A DNA stretch of 64,000 nt, from positions 186,001 through 250,000 of the forward strand of contig NZ_PDEQ01000005.1 of NCBI RefSeq assembly GCF_002554795.1. Direction: 5' to 3'. The DNA comes from Longibacter salinarum. Lineage in GTDB: Bacteria; Bacteroidota; Rhodothermia; Rhodothermales; Salinibacteraceae. Each line of letters starts with the position of its first letter. Position 1 is the stretch's first letter. Positions 32,787 through 52,646 of this stretch are shown piece after piece. A program made the position numbers and the translations under genes. The notes under the pieces are model-generated. The model was not told the DNA's origin, did not search any database, and was given only the letters and a program-made list of their open reading frames with translations.

Positions 32787-33161
32787 CTACTGCTCGAAGT
32801 CCAGCCCACCTTTCTTGATATCGTAGACGAGCCCGATCGCGAGGATGGCCGCAAAGATCGTAACGACAATCATCACGCCGAGGGCTGCTCCACCTGCGAT
32901 GAAGTCGTGGAAACTCACCGCCCACGGATACATGAAGACGACCTCGACGTCAAAGACGATAAAAATCATTGCGACGAGGTAAAACTTCACGGAGTACCGT
33001 TCGCGGGCACTGCCGATCGGATCCATCCCACTCTCATACGGCGACTGCTTGATGCGATTGGGACGCTTCGGCCCCACGAGCTCGGCCGCCTTCAGCAGTG
33101 TGAGGGCGAGGCCGGTGGCAATCGCAATGGTGATGTACAGCGGGATGAAATCTCCAAACAT
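32787..33161 (-). CDS. nuoA: NADH-quinone oxidoreductase subunit A
   Basis: The 124-residue membrane subunit has three transmembrane helices (about 5-25, 63-85, 92-114). The family block is present: YESGMDPIGSARERYSVKF, then FYLVAMIFIVFDVEVVFMYPWA. ATG 33161 is preferred because the longer frame (to 33344) adds 61 residues beyond the usual family length. It is the first gene of the nuo cluster; the promoter should lie in the repeat-rich region upstream (33162-33787). Confidence 0.92.
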   Translation of the reverse strand: MFGDFIPLYITIAIATGLALTLLKAAELVGPKRPNRIKQSPYESGMDPIGSARERYSVKFYLVAMIFIVFDVEVVFMYPWAVSFHDFIAGGAALGVMIVVTIFAAILAIGLVYDIKKGGLDFEQ

Positions 33162-33363
33162 GACTCGGAGCGGGCAGAAAACCAGGAAGGTCCATCGGAT
33201 AATCGCACCCATCGTGCGCCCCGCCCAGTCAGGCAGGATCGGAGCAGGCGTTCCGTGACGCAAGGATGCGATAGGCAGGTATGCATGGTACGCATCTGCT
33301 TCCACGGGTGCAAAAGCCGCACCTCTCTGCATTCCGAAGAGCACATGAAATGGGAGTCTGGCA

Positions 33364-33511
33364 ATGCGAAGGGCTAAGTGCGAAAAGGAGAATGTGAATG
33401 GTCGATTGTGGATTGAGGATAGTGAATTGGACCGATCTTTCGGGCGTGATGCAGTCCTCCGCCTCCGGAGTCTTGATTGTTTGTCGTCGGTGGTTCGTGG
33501 TCTATGGGATT
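33364..33511. repeat. Heptamer arrays, left block of the nuoA upstream region
   Basis: Three sets keep an exact 7-bp phase. At 33364-33384: ATGCGAA, GGGCTAA and GTGCGAA. At 33388-33429: six words including TGAATGG, TCGATTG and TGGATTG, the reverse complement of the CAATCC family. At 33470-33511: six words including TTGTTTG, TCGTCGG and TGGTTCG, close to words at 2112-2139. Orientation is opposite to the block at 33583-33673. Confidence 0.7.
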
Positions 33512-33582
33512 GGCTTCTAAGCGCGCAGATACGTTTGAACGTTTGCCACCCGATCGTGCCTCCACCAGATCGCCGTAACTCT

Positions 33583-33713
33583 CAATCCCTAATCCGCAAT
33601 CCCAAATACGTAATCCTCAATCCTTAATCCGTAACCCCTAACCCAAAATCCCCAATCCTTAATTCGCAATCCCCAACGTCTCAACGAATCAACGTTCTAA
33701 CGTTGTAACGCAA
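33583..33713. repeat. Thirteen tandem heptamers then five octamers
   Basis: From 33583 to 33673 there are thirteen gap-free 7-mers of consensus (C/T)AATCCN, for example CAATCCC (33583), TAATCCG (33590), TAATCCT (33611), CAATCCT (33618) and TAACCCC (33632). Then five gap-free 8-mers of consensus (C/T)AACGNNN run from 33674 to 33713. Individual words differ by several substitutions, yet no insertion or deletion breaks either phase. Words of the same two families recur at 52552-52646 in the reverse order (octamers first). Confidence 0.85.
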
Positions 33714-33755
33714 AAATGCCAGGCCCGACCGGGGCACCCCCGACCGGACCTGGCA
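33712..33755 (-). terminator. Intrinsic terminator of the TonB receptor gene
   Basis: On the minus strand TGCCAGG (33755-33749) pairs with CCTGGCA (33723-33717), with inner GGGG/CCCC pairs near the loop, followed by five T (33716-33712). It lies 33 bp past the receptor stop. Confidence 0.85.
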
Positions 33756-33760
33756 ATCCC

Positions 33761-33788
33761 TTCGCACTTCAAATTTCGCACTTCGCAC
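33761..33788. repeat. Four heptamers between TonB receptor stop and terminator
   Basis: TTCGCAC (33761), TTCAAAT (33768), TTCGCAC (33775) and TTCGCAC (33782) follow without gap and touch the stop codon of the minus-strand receptor gene. The order stop, TTCGCAC array, terminator repeats what is seen after nuoG. Confidence 0.75.
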
Positions 33789-36763
33789 TAGAAGCTGTAT
33801 TGCATCCGGCCGAAGACGGCCAGGCCGAGCTCCGGTGCACCGGCGAATTCTCTGTGCTCATTGTTGAGGATATTCTTGCCTGTGACGTCGACGCGCAGAC
33901 CCGGGATCGACTGCACCTTGTAGCCCATGCGGGCGTCGAGCAGGAAATACGAGTCCACGGACCCGACGTACGGTCCGGTTTCCACCGGGAAGCCTTCGAC
34001 GTAGTTACCGGTCATCCCAAACGAGAAGCCGTTGTCGAAGCGGTAATCGAACCCGCTCTTGAATTTGAACGCCGGAGCATTGAGCGCGAGGCTCAACGAC
34101 GTGTTGGTCTCGTCGAGCTCTTCGTTGTCGAAGAAGTCATCGCTCAGGAACGACGTGTTCGCGAAAATGGCGAACGCATCCGTTGCCTGCAGTGTCACGG
34201 AGATATCGGTACCGTAGTACGACACCTCACCGAAGTTGCGGTAGCTGAGGAAGCCACCCACCTCATTGCCCGCACCGCCGCCGGGAAGGACTTCCTGATC
34301 CGGTTGGATGATGCCGGTCGGCGTGTCACCCAAACCATTTCCAACGACCCCACCCAGAAGGTCGGCAACGTCCCCGGGAGCAAGGCCACTATTCGCCAAA
34401 TCGTTTAGTAGGCTTTGCACCGTACCATCGCTCGTCGTGCCAAAAATCTCATCCAGTTCGCCGGCAACATCAGCCGTCAGTCCCTGTGCCTGCAGGTACG
34501 CGAGCGGGCTTTCGATCACCAGCGGACCGACGAAGTCTTTTTTCGTCTCGTAGTACCCGTCGATCTGCACGATGAGTCGATCAGAGACAATACCCTTGTA
34601 GCCGACCTCAAAGGTCTGCGTCGTCGTCTGTTCAATCGGAGCGATATCAACCGGCCCATCGACGACCGAGTAGCCCTGTGCACTGGCATCCGGAATTCCA
34701 AACACTACGGCCTCGCCGTTTTCGTTCACCGTGCGACCGCCGAAGAAGCCAAGTCGGTTGGGCTCCTGGGCCATGTAGCCGAAGAGCGATCCGAGAAGAC
34801 CAATTTGCTGTGACGTCAGACCCGCACCGGATAGCTGTTGCTGCACTCCCTGTGTAAACTGCCCCGTCTGCGGATTCAGGGATCCCTGCGCAACTGCAGC
34901 ATAATACGGCAGGAGAGGCAGATTATTCACGTCCAGATTCAGCCCGAAGAATCCCTGAACTGGAAACGAGTACTTGATCTCATTCGACTGGCGGAAATTG
35001 TCGAACGTGTACCCGTCTGCCGCGCCGAGCCCCCGGAAAACAAGGTCAAACCCACCGGGCAGCGGCTGCCGCTGTGCTTCTACGTCGAGGAAAAGCGAGT
35101 TGGTACCGGGCGAGGAAAACGAACGGTTGTAGCTTCCTCGCAACGTGTTCGTCGGCGTCGCCTTGTAGACCAGCGCGACACGCGGCGACAGTTGCACCTC
35201 CTCCACCACGTTGTTGTAATCGGCGCGAGCGGCGAGCGTGAGTGCAAATTTCTCGCTCAGATCCGTCGTCGTCTGCGTATATGCGCCGTACTCCTGAATC
35301 AGATCGTCGTCTTCGTTTCGCCCGACGATCTGACTGTTCGTTCGCGGCACCGTGATGTCACTGTCGGCACCAATAATAACCTGCGTGCTGATCGATGAGG
35401 CGCTGAAGTCATACTGAATCTGGTTGTTATACTGCACGCTCTGGTCGCGCACCAGGTTGCCGCCACCGTACACGTAGGTGTCGGGGCCGCCGTCGTTGAC
35501 GTTGATGTACGACTGCGCGAAGAGCCCGCCCGACTGTACGCGCAACTGGCCATAGTAGTAGCCGAATCCTTCCGCCTGCAGCGTACCGATCCCGGACTGC
35601 ACAGCACCCGTCAGTTCGGCGTAGCCACCATTGAGCGAGATCGTCGTATTGTCGCCCGGCTGGTACTGCAGCAGGCCGTTCACATTGACCTTGCTGTAGA
35701 TGTCCTCGCGACGGAGCCGGGCTGCGTCTGCCTGACCGTCGCCATCCGTATCGATGCGATCGAAGCTGCGCCCCTCGAGTGCCGGATCATCCAGGTCCTG
35801 GTACACGCGGTAGCGGGAAATCTCGAGCGAGTCTGGGCGATCGTTGATGTCAAGCTCCCAGTCCTCGGCGCGGGCGTACTGCCCCGTGACCTTATAGCCC
35901 CAGTTATCGCTGAACGTACCGGCGTGGCGGAACTGCCCCCCGAAGAACTGACGCGACCCACCCGATACCGCGACGGTCGTGCCGGGATAGTTGAACGGGT
36001 CCTTCGTGAAGTAGTGAATCACGCCGCTGTCGACGCCTGGTCCGTACAGCGCTGACCCCGGTCCGCGCACGACCTCCACGCGCTCGACGTCGACCGTCAT
36101 ATTGGGCATGATGCTGTGCACGTTCACGCCGAGCGAGGGAACCGACGCCTGCCGATAGTCGGTCAGCACGAACGCGGAGCCGCTGAACGCCTCGTTGAAT
36201 CCACGAAGCACCACCTCGCGCCGGTCGATGCCGGTCTGCGCCATGTCGACACCTGGCGTGGCGCGGAGCACTTCCACCGACGAGGTCGACACCGTCGCCT
36301 CGATCTCATCCGGCTGCAGCACCGAAATAGAGGCCGGCGCATCCAGTATCTTCTCCTGACGACGCGACGCCGAGACGACGACCTGATCCAGGCTGGCCGT
36401 CTGAATCTTGAGCGCCACAGCGAGCTCGGCCATCTCGCCCTCTTCGACTGTCACCGGCAGCTCCTGCGACTGGTAGCCCACGAAACGAAACTCCACCAGG
36501 TACCGACCGGGATCGATACCGGAGATCGAGTAGGTGCCATCGGGATTGGTGGCGGTGCCGCGGACGATGTCGGGCGAACCTTCTGCTCGAACGGCAATGT
36601 TGGCGCCAACCAGCGGCGATCGGTCGTCGGCGTCACGAACCATGCCCTCGATTCCGGTTTGCTGGGCATAAGCGATGTCAGGGGCACCGGCCATCCAGAG
36701 GAGCAGCACCAACGCTGCGAGCCACGGGGGGACGAAGGGGGTCAAACTCACGCGTGCGTTCAT
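33788..36763 (-). CDS. TonB-dependent outer-membrane receptor
   Basis: The 991-residue receptor has a signal peptide from ATG 36763 (LAALVLLLWMAGAPDIAYAQ). A CarboxypepD_reg-like domain follows at about 38-125 (IEGMVRDADDRSPLVGANI, YLVEFRFVGYQSQEL). The plug domain has VVVSASRRQEKILDAPASI and VEVVRGPGSALYGPGVDSG. A beta-barrel fills the rest, with a terminal aromatic residue (FGRMQYSF). The ligand is unknown: barrel loops are rich in Asn, Gly and Gln, and no SusD partner is next to it, so this is likely a siderophore, cobalamin or peptide receptor rather than a polysaccharide pair. The downstream M19 dipeptidase is not co-oriented as a downstream partner (it lies upstream on the same strand). 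Confidence 0.93.
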   Translation of the reverse strand: MNARVSLTPFVPPWLAALVLLLWMAGAPDIAYAQQTGIEGMVRDADDRSPLVGANIAVRAEGSPDIVRGTATNPDGTYSISGIDPGRYLVEFRFVGYQSQELPVTVEEGEMAELAVALKIQTASLDQVVVSASRRQEKILDAPASISVLQPDEIEATVSTSSVEVLRATPGVDMAQTGIDRREVVLRGFNEAFSGSAFVLTDYRQASVPSLGVNVHSIMPNMTVDVERVEVVRGPGSALYGPGVDSGVIHYFTKDPFNYPGTTVAVSGGSRQFFGGQFRHAGTFSDNWGYKVTGQYARAEDWELDINDRPDSLEISRYRVYQDLDDPALEGRSFDRIDTDGDGQADAARLRREDIYSKVNVNGLLQYQPGDNTTISLNGGYAELTGAVQSGIGTLQAEGFGYYYGQLRVQSGGLFAQSYINVNDGGPDTYVYGGGNLVRDQSVQYNNQIQYDFSASSISTQVIIGADSDITVPRTNSQIVGRNEDDDLIQEYGAYTQTTTDLSEKFALTLAARADYNNVVEEVQLSPRVALVYKATPTNTLRGSYNRSFSSPGTNSLFLDVEAQRQPLPGGFDLVFRGLGAADGYTFDNFRQSNEIKYSFPVQGFFGLNLDVNNLPLLPYYAAVAQGSLNPQTGQFTQGVQQQLSGAGLTSQQIGLLGSLFGYMAQEPNRLGFFGGRTVNENGEAVVFGIPDASAQGYSVVDGPVDIAPIEQTTTQTFEVGYKGIVSDRLIVQIDGYYETKKDFVGPLVIESPLAYLQAQGLTADVAGELDEIFGTTSDGTVQSLLNDLANSGLAPGDVADLLGGVVGNGLGDTPTGIIQPDQEVLPGGGAGNEVGGFLSYRNFGEVSYYGTDISVTLQATDAFAIFANTSFLSDDFFDNEELDETNTSLSLALNAPAFKFKSGFDYRFDNGFSFGMTGNYVEGFPVETGPYVGSVDSYFLLDARMGYKVQSIPGLRVDVTGKNILNNEHREFAGAPELGLAVFGRMQYSF

Positions 36764-50620: not shown

Positions 50621-52270
50621 GTGGTCGATAGCTACTTTACGTTGCGCGCCCTCGTCCGTGAATGGCAAACGGACCTCATCGGCACGACCATCATCGACGC
50701 GTACTCGCAGTCGAAAAATGAGCTGACGCTCGCCATGGCCGATGGAAAAAACGAGTGGATGCTGCGAAGCTCGATCCAGCGGCCGATGATCTTCATCTTC
50801 CGCACGGACCGCTACTCCAAAGCGCGCAGGAACGTCGCCACCCTCTTCCCAGACGCCTCCGACCGGAAGATCACGGATGTCAGAATCGCCGATCGCGACC
50901 GGATGCTCTACCTCGACCTGGAGGGTGGATACCGGTTTCAGTGGCAACTCTTCGGGGCCCGCGCCAACGCGTTTCTGATCGACGAAAACGACAGGACCGC
51001 CGAAGCCTTCCAGAATGACGAGAAATATTCGGGGGACGAGGCACCCAGTCCACGAGCCGCTCCCATGCCGGAGACGTTCGCCGACTTCGAGGATCGCTGG
51101 CGCACCAATAGAAACTCGACGCGGCAGGCGATCCAGTCGGCCGTGCCTCTCTTCGGCCGGCTCCCAGCGCAGGAAACGGTTTTCCGCGCGGGCGTCGAGA
51201 CAGACGACCCGGCCGACACAACCGAAGACGAACGCCGGGCTCTCTTCGACGCGTCGCAGGACCTGATTGCCGACTTCGAGAACCCGTTGCCCGTCATCTA
51301 CGGCAGCGGACAGTTCCCCGACGCGTTCGCCCTCGCCCCGATGCACCATCTAGACGCGAATGGCGCCAAATCGGAGACCTTCGACACCGTCGATCACGCG
51401 GTGGCTTCGTTCGTGAAACGGAAGCTGGCCGAACGGCACTACCACCGGCTGTACGACTCGCTCGAGAACGCACTCCGCGAAGCCGCCGAGCATTACCGCG
51501 AGAGCGCGGACCGCATGCTGGAGGAGCTCTCGAATGAAAGCCGAGCCGACCGCTATGAGCGCTGGGGACACCTTCTGATGGCGCAGCAGAACGCCGTCGA
51601 TCCGGGCGACGAGGAGGTCACTCTGCCGGATCTGTTCGAGGATGGACAACCGGTCACCATTCCGCTCGACCCCGCGAAGTCGGTCGTCGAGAACGCCCAA
51701 TATTACTACGCTCGCGCCCGGCGAACCCGGCGATCTCGAGAGGAAGCCGAGTCCCGTCTGGAGGAGACGATGGAGCGGGCCGAGCAGGCGAAGGCCCTCC
51801 ACGATGAGATTTCGGAGATCGACACGCTCAGCGGCATAAAGGACTTTCGCAAGGAGCGGGAGGCGGATGTCGCGCCGTTCGTCGATCGCCAGGACACGAA
51901 CGTCGATACCTTTCCCTTTCGGCGCTTTGATCTGGGCGACGGCTTCGAGGTGTGGGTGGGCAAAAATGCACGGCAAAACGACGAACTCACCTTCCACGTG
52001 GCGCAGAAATACGACCTGTGGATGCACGCTCGCGGCGTTCCGGGCTCCCACACGGTCTTGCACCTACCCAACCGCGATGCCGAACCCGGACGGCGCCGAA
52101 AGCACGTCGCCGCATCGATCGCCGCCTACTATAGCAAGGCGCGCGGCAGCGGCCTCGTGCCGGTCATGATGACGCGACGCAAGTACGTCCGCAGCCCCAA
52201 AGGTGCCGCACCGGGGGCGGTACGGGTTGATCGGGAAGAGGTGCTCCTCGTCGAGCCAGGACTTCCTTAG
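50621..52270 (+). CDS. rqcH: RqcH/NFACT-family ribosome quality control protein
   Basis: The 549-residue protein (from GTG 50621) has the NFACT architecture. NFACT-N begins VDSYFTLRALVREWQTDLIG and continues through the LDLEGGYRFQWQLFGARANA strand region. A central long coiled coil follows (about 370-420, with YARARRTRRSREEAESRLEE). The C-terminal NFACT-R domain has WVGKNARQNDELTFHVAQKY, DLWMHARGVPGSHTVLH and KYVRSPKGAAPGAVRVDRE. RqcH binds stalled large subunits and helps add C-terminal alanine tails; in older annotation it is called fibronectin-binding protein. A TTG at 50555 would add 22 residues, but the family begins at the GTG chosen. A repeat island follows the stop. Confidence 0.88.
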   Translation: MVDSYFTLRALVREWQTDLIGTTIIDAYSQSKNELTLAMADGKNEWMLRSSIQRPMIFIFRTDRYSKARRNVATLFPDASDRKITDVRIADRDRMLYLDLEGGYRFQWQLFGARANAFLIDENDRTAEAFQNDEKYSGDEAPSPRAAPMPETFADFEDRWRTNRNSTRQAIQSAVPLFGRLPAQETVFRAGVETDDPADTTEDERRALFDASQDLIADFENPLPVIYGSGQFPDAFALAPMHHLDANGAKSETFDTVDHAVASFVKRKLAERHYHRLYDSLENALREAAEHYRESADRMLEELSNESRADRYERWGHLLMAQQNAVDPGDEEVTLPDLFEDGQPVTIPLDPAKSVVENAQYYYARARRTRRSREEAESRLEETMERAEQAKALHDEISEIDTLSGIKDFRKEREADVAPFVDRQDTNVDTFPFRRFDLGDGFEVWVGKNARQNDELTFHVAQKYDLWMHARGVPGSHTVLHLPNRDAEPGRRRKHVAASIAAYYSKARGSGLVPVMMTRRKYVRSPKGAAPGAVRVDREEVLLVEPGLP

Positions 52271-52305
52271 GGTTCAGGGTTCAACGTTCAGGGTTCAACG
52301 TTCAA
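52271..52305. repeat. Five in-phase heptamers after the rqcH stop
   Basis: GGTTCAG (52271), GGTTCAA (52278), CGTTCAG (52285), GGTTCAA (52292) and CGTTCAA (52299) run without gap, starting at the base after the stop codon. Confidence 0.8.
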
Positions 52306-52307
52306 GA

Positions 52308-52343
52308 CAAACCACCGTCGCACGGCCGTGCGACGGTGGTTTG
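52308..52343. repeat. Perfect 36-bp palindrome (REP-like)
   Basis: Each half is 18 bp, with no loop; the centre reads GCACGGCCGTGC. The core ACCGTCGCA-GG is shared with a palindrome at 62195-62228, while the outer arms differ between the two copies but stay paired. There is no T-run, so it is not a classical terminator, although it may act as an RNA 3'-end barrier for rqcH. Confidence 0.85.
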
Positions 52344-52551: not shown

Positions 52552-52646
52552 CAACGAGTTAACGTCACGTCCAACGGTTCAACGGTACAACGTCTTAACG
52601 ACCCAACATCTCAACTCACAATCCACAATCCACCATTCACAGTCGA
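52552..52646. repeat. Octamer then heptamer array upstream of mltG
   Basis: Octamers of the (C/T)AACGNNN family run from 52552 (CAACGAGT, TAACGTCA), are broken by four bases, then continue 52572-52611 (CAACGGTT, CAACGGTA, CAACGTCT and others). Five heptamers follow (52612-52646; CAATCCA twice). The order is the reverse of the array at 33583-33713. Confidence 0.75.

Follow-up and report, generated by a model that had tools for sequence, protein, structure and literature searches.

The spacer between nuoA and a TonB-dependent receptor gene of Longibacter salinarum (33162-33787 of the window, the whole 64,000-nucleotide stretch of DNA analysed here) carries short tandem words that hold a strict 7-bp or 8-bp phase. 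This raises the question of what kind of process makes such arrays and sets their orientation. Both flanking genes are on the minus strand: nuoA, for NADH-quinone oxidoreductase subunit A, on the left (32787-33161; Pfam Oxidored_q4, 3.5e-33), and the receptor gene on the right (33788-36763, a gene call; Pfam TonB_dep_Rec, 2e-17, and Plug, 1.2e-13), whose stop codon is at 33788.

From left to right, the spacer contains a G-arm of degenerate heptamers (33366-33428; lag-7 score 13.9), with its G-rich strand on the plus strand and running outward from nuoA, and a weak extension of this arm, also on the plus strand (33464-33506; lag-7 score 8.9; TCTTGAT TGTTTGT CGTCGGT GGTTCGT). A core without repeats (33507-33583) includes the switch from G to C, with the peak of cumulative G-C at 33545. 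The G strand of the C-arm is the minus strand; this arm consists of 13 degenerate heptamers of the GGATTG family (33584-33675; lag-7 score 35.5), followed by minus-strand octamers of the CGTTGNNA family, which read CAACGNNN on the plus strand (33672-33720; lag-8 score 15.2). Between these octamers and a last mini-array is placed an intrinsic terminator hairpin of the receptor gene, read from sequence on the minus strand (33718-33754), with its T-run appearing as AAAAA at 33712-33716 on the plus strand. The mini-array, of minus-strand GTGCGAA heptamers (TTCGCAC on plus; 33758-33788), abuts the receptor stop codon.

The first-pass annotation had proposed 13 heptamers at 33583-33673 and five octamers at 33674-33713 in strict phase, and both segments surpass all of their 2000 dinucleotide shuffles. 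Lag-7 identity in the first is 0.679, as compared to 0.307 ± 0.056 in shuffles of the segment; lag-8 identity in the second is 0.688, as compared to 0.250 ± 0.082. The inversion that it described for the left-hand arrays is correct, with G-rich words to the left and C-rich words to the right of the cumulative G-C peak. The heptamers proposed on the left are distinct from shuffles at 33388-33429 (lag-7 identity 0.600, p ≤ 0.0005) and weak at 33470-33511 (0.543, p about 0.01). Phase-variation (contingency) SSR have near-perfect units in or beside surface genes and alter frame or promoter spacing; the class was rejected here because units of the window arrays are only about 65-70% alike and the arrays are not inside genes.

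A second locus in the window has a comparable layout. A plus-strand G-arm of GTTCAGG/GTTCAAC heptamers (52267-52304) begins at a stop codon, and a minus-strand C-arm (52569-52639) lies upstream of the next gene. In the latter, CAACGNNN octamers are followed by CAATCCA heptamers, so that the octamer-then-heptamer mix of the nuoA spacer is seen again.

These arrays are a feature of the genome and not of two loci. Together with the window, 40 further stretches were sampled, amounting to 858 kb out of a genome of 4.4 Mb. Array density in this sample may be too high, as part of the stretches had been selected by their match to a query. At a score threshold of 15, a maximal-segment scan at lags 4-30 found 28 lag-7 arrays and 27 lag-8 arrays, while dinucleotide shuffles gave 0 and 0. 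The large excess is repeated at the multiples 14, 16, 21, 24 and 28, and no excess is present at lags 10, 11, 13, 17, 19, 20, 22 or 23 in the same 858 kb; lags divisible by 3 carry the expected codon signal. The expectation of the first-pass annotation that the lag-7/lag-8 signal would exceed random sequence genome-wide thus passed. When a codon model is used to define the genes, 69 of the 70 arrays scoring at least 13 are intergenic.

The words fall into about five families, to which arrays were assigned by nearest reference word, mostly with 0-1 mismatch: the heptamers GTTCAGR, GGATTGR and GCGAAGT, and the octamers GTNTGRAN and CGTTGNNA. Four consecutive GTTCANN units have 254 matches in this genome (overlapping matches counted) and 81 in the sister species (G001); they are absent from five other genomes of the family, and the reversed control was found nowhere. 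Arrays contain 3-28 units, with no peak at four. Blocks of several units are also copied, as where TTCGCACTTCGACC is repeated over 116 bp.

Two other dispersed elements were observed in the spacers. A near-perfect palindrome, CCGTCGCACGGCCGTGCGACGG, is shared by the two species and often separates a G-arm from a C-arm (window 52306-52341; L057:9160-9200; L070:6324-6343; L078:4096-4115); it may act as a terminator or represent a REP-like element. The other is MITE-like, about 150-210 bp long, and has the ends CTGTTTGGCGGA...TCCGCCAAACAG (for example at window 13302, L074:4611, L078:9174 and L045:11662). Copies retaining both ends number at least 8 in the sampled genome and 1 in the sister sample, and the element sometimes lies where the G and C arrays of a pair meet.

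The common property of the arrays is their polarity. On either side of a spacer, the G-rich strand (G/T-rich and C-poor; G 0.42, C 0.10) leads away, 5' to 3', from the gene that is closest, and the arrays fill intergenic DNA up to a stop codon or to the region upstream of a start. On the plus strand of L. salinarum, G-left, G-right, C-left and C-right arrays number 37, 1, 4 and 29 (Fisher 1.6e-14); the sister species gives 33, 3, 6 and 24 (Fisher 1.8e-9). Spacers with both polarities are ordered G then C in 46/46 cases in the two species. The inverse orientation had been noticed at the nuoA locus beforehand, but its near-exceptionless character across the genome had been missed. As the polarity is present in tandem, convergent and divergent spacers, it is set by the gene border, not by gene direction. 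Most G-strand arrays near a stop codon begin 0-10 bp past it, and start-side arrays, in which the antisense strand is the G-rich one, mostly stand 75-200 bp before the start. In a test free of gene models, which took ORFs of 150 aa or more, the stop abuts the 5' end of the G strand as compared to the C strand at 22:2 in L. salinarum and 35:1 in the sister.

Base composition accounts for part of this pattern. In both species pooled, arrays are outward-G at 80:10 at stops and 49:4 at starts. Windows with strong G/C skew but no array give, for stops and starts respectively, 57:45 and 150:43 in L. salinarum and 21:15 and 67:41 in array-less relatives. Stop-side polarity is therefore a property of the arrays (80:10 against 57:45), and start-side polarity is in part background composition. 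Each word family obeys the polarity, including the GTTCA arrays (31:3 G-outward); supply of stop codons was rejected as its cause, since stops in these arrays sit on the C strand. The two arms of one spacer belong to the same word family in 4/46 cases, with 7.9 expected. That the arms are usually different words rules out a hairpin between them. REP/BIME or MITE identity, which calls for a palindromic unit or terminal inverted repeats, was rejected on the same count.

Comparison with the sister species separates what is conserved from what is not. Among 111 orthologous spacers, arrays are present in both species in 13, in L. salinarum only in 10, in the sister only in 4, and in neither in 84 (p 6e-8); for spacers of at least 120 bp, the counts are 12, 9, 4 and 39 (p 8e-5). 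The 13 shared spacers contain 17 arms of equal polarity common to both species, 6 of the same word family and 11 of different families; the period differs (7 as compared to 8) in 5/17. The period changes are firmer than the word changes because the family labels rest on simple patterns. Thus, arms persist at orthologous sites with the same polarity, and unit number, word and period turn over. At L075_2760, an arm pair fills a 235-bp gap from stop to ATG, a distance of 31 bp in the sister, and at L057_9106 the last codons of a gene are replaced by an array.

The nuoA spacer follows this pattern. Read in the sister from two contigs, both ending in repeats, it has the same architecture of G-arm, core, C-arm, octamer remnant, terminator and post-stop heptamers, written in other words: GGGCGAA heptamers at the G-arm position and ATTCCCA/ATCCCTA heptamers at the C-arm position. 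The receptor terminator hairpin and its T-run are retained, and the post-stop heptamers are longer. Both here and at L069_11906, the large arm is placed beyond the conserved intrinsic terminator. Sister contigs C360 and C342 (L079, L304) end inside arrays, suggesting that short-read assemblies break there and that array counts from draft genomes are likely low.

Two interpretations offered by the first-pass annotation fare less well than its observations. Comparing orthologous spacers between species, where it had suggested strains, reveals that unit number does change. A spacing function is unsupported, as orthologous spacers vary in unit number, word family and period, and fixed spacing is disfavoured accordingly. 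Growth by copying followed by substitution only is ruled out by this turnover of words and periods together with the copied multi-unit blocks; the lexicon shared among arrays is a further point against it.

The polarity extends beyond the two species. An octamer pattern, for which base counting gives about 0.02 expected chance matches in the collection, and whose word itself is not claimed to be special, located 80 loci in other phyla. These include Chloroflexi, Planctomycetota, Saprospiraceae, Verrucomicrobia, Tariuqbacter, Cyanobacteria, Kiritimatiellae, Elusimicrobia and Chlamydiota. At these loci, long-ORF stops abut the G strand as compared to the C strand at 43:5 in the test free of gene models, and adjacent arrays of opposite polarity are ordered G to C in 25 cases and C to G in 4. 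Although selected by an octamer, the loci also have an excess of lag-7 arrays. Four consecutive GGATT words fail as a phylum-wide marker, being present in only 5/118 genomes, with the reversed control word equally common. Nearer relatives are mostly poor in arrays. Among the other genera sampled from the family or order, five have none to speak of and G003 has few heptamer arrays. Strong GGCTNNN heptamer arrays were observed in G033, of another family of the same order (L125, L127, L128), in which octamer arrays are absent. Polarity counts, resting on very few arrays, are 1:1 in each of G033 and G003. Sequence upstream of starts was also observed to be C-rich over G (sense) in several array-less genera of the family (L111-L122, L131-L145).

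Several known repeats resemble these arrays in part. As in intergenic heptamer SSR of the STRR/GGGNATC type, units are dispersed and head to tail, with 69/70 arrays intergenic; unit length is not confined to 7, with 27 lag-8 arrays beside 28 lag-7 arrays. The STRR heptanucleotide repeats of Calothrix and Nostoc, reportedly described by Mazel in 1990, are likewise short tandem heptamers with several words per genome. The octamers, strong degeneracy and polarity found here were not found described for STRR in the portions of that literature available. The proposal that the present arrays form a separate, more degenerate family of mixed 7/8 period, unlike single-word STRR, is supported genome-wide.

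The closest precedent in position is the GGGNATC/GGGGAYT heptamers of Xanthomonas and Nostoc, for which G4 was discussed and no function found (Rehm et al. 2015, PMC4692102). These too are dispersed intergenic heptamers varying in unit number and sequence between species at conserved sites, and their almost exclusive placement on the side of the 5' neighbouring ORF, whatever its orientation, is the same polarity as observed here. In contrast to their single G-tract word and preference for four units, the present arrays have about five families, several without G tracts, two periods, degenerate units and swaps of word and period at orthologous sites. TAACTGA direct repeats of Beggiatoaceae, Cyanobacteria and Bacteroidetes, proposed as translation sites (MacGregor 2015, PMC4679880), share the occurrence of heptamer arrays in distant phyla, indels in 7-nt steps and mixing with other heptamers. 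They stand in sense directly before start codons, whereas here the sense strand of an array ahead of a start is the C-rich one, and arrays adjoin stops instead. In Geobacter metallireducens, tandem hepta- and octanucleotide elements were read as regulator sites (PMC2700814); in the accessible part of that report, some are paired on opposite strands, and, unlike here, they have a fixed four or five units and no general polarity rule is stated. Within the open-licence literature, from which older work is possibly missing, the octamer partner class, the further phyla and the swaps of word and period at conserved sites appear to be new. The same appears true of a rule independent of word, period and gene orientation.

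What mechanism could conserve polarity while replacing sequence? If a spacer is broken, the outward-running strand would form the 3' tail on either side, and the polarity would mark precisely this strand. We therefore tentatively favour recombinational copying from GT-rich 3' tails, as a possible rather than a probable explanation of the arrays. RecA prefers TGG-repeat, Chi-like single-stranded DNA (PMC3763553). Loading best on G/T-rich tails, it would allow a tail to invade the sister copy, or another array of the same words, out of register, and to copy units by synthesis-dependent annealing. Whether in register or not, and at times with another array as template, copying would lengthen arrays in whole units, spread a small lexicon and swap words, leaving polarity unchanged; arrays in which the other strand formed the 3' tail would gain fewer units and erode. 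Borders would be set by purifying selection on coding sequence, promoters and terminators, and the arrays would for the most part be a side product of repair, playing no role specific to any gene. Consistent with this proposal, the excess is limited to lags 7, 8 and their multiples, polarity at stops is array-specific, sites are conserved through word turnover, and words are independent in each arm. It leaves the choice of periods 7 and 8 and of words unaccounted for, and start-end polarity is partly background composition (non-array windows 150:43). As array-poor relatives presumably own the same repair genes, a lineage-specific trigger is also missing.

A second, rather doubtful reading is that transcription drives the arrays. 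Untranslated RNA leaving a gene, as read-through past the stop or antisense from promoters, would form R-loops wherever the outward strand is rich in G; the exposed strand would slip in replication, so that only G-outward arrays expand. The start of G-arms immediately past the stop codon, where translation ends, and the C-poor, G-rich outward strand fit this reading. So does the distribution of arrays in L. salinarum, as convergent spacers bear them most often (13/46, as compared to 25/315 tandem and 7/81 divergent). However, divergent spacers also follow the polarity, and, counted per gene end, arms on the start side are almost as common as those on the stop side (32 on 477 start ends and 39 on 407 stop ends in L. 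salinarum; 26/254 and 40/214 in the sister). The large arms beyond conserved terminators at nuoA and L069_11906 further disfavour a purely transcriptional cause.

The order itself may instead be selected. A G-first, C-last arrangement would pause or end stray transcription from either side, through G-rich pausing and then a C-rich Rho-loading stretch, with selection acting on order and not on word. We consider both this boundary role and its pausing-then-Rho sequence unlikely. An order without exception in 46 spacers despite word turnover, retention of array sites between species beyond the effect of length, and enrichment in convergent spacers are in its favour. Against it, the genes orthologous to those flanking the 10 spacers with arrays in L. 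salinarum only manage without arrays, the arm pair at L075_2760 parts two genes closely adjacent in the sister, and some array spacers also contain a hairpin terminator.

Neutral slippage of local sequence, with polarity inherited from the base composition of the spacer, is less plausible again. C-richness upstream of starts is indeed a family-wide background that includes array-less relatives, but the background past stops is near neutral where the arrays are strongly polar, and local seeds would not yield the same five words at dozens of loci. G-quadruplex elements, as proposed for GGGNATC, would fold the G strand into a G4 that acts in transcription or protects the flanks. This is quite improbable: the polarity reported by Rehm et al. 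is the same and some words contain GG (GGATTGG, GTTCAGG), but families without G tracts (CGTTGNNA, GACGTTTG variants, GCGAAGT) obey the rule too and no preference for four units is present, leaving G4 unsupported as a general cause.

Most remote of all is a reading of the arms as bacterial equivalents of interstitial telomere-like repeats, in which a templated enzyme would add 7-/8-nt G-rich words at a break and, in a step we hold equally far-fetched, words added to both 3' ends would be joined head to head to give G left and C right; if true, a few templates would explain the small lexicon, the 7/8 mix, the degenerate but phased units, the back-to-back arms with hardly any unique DNA between them and the swaps of word and period, but much of this is also explained by recombinational copying, and no age gradient along the arms, as predicted by terminal addition, was detected (62 as compared to 44, p 0.10).

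Earlier heptamer reports proceeded lineage by lineage, each with its own word and its own proposed function. Taken together, the data suggest one phenomenon in several phyla: degenerate period-7/8 arrays with the G-rich strand outward from the flanking gene. A rule that outlives its sequence points to a strand-polar process, whether repair, transcription or selection, that shapes bacterial spacers.
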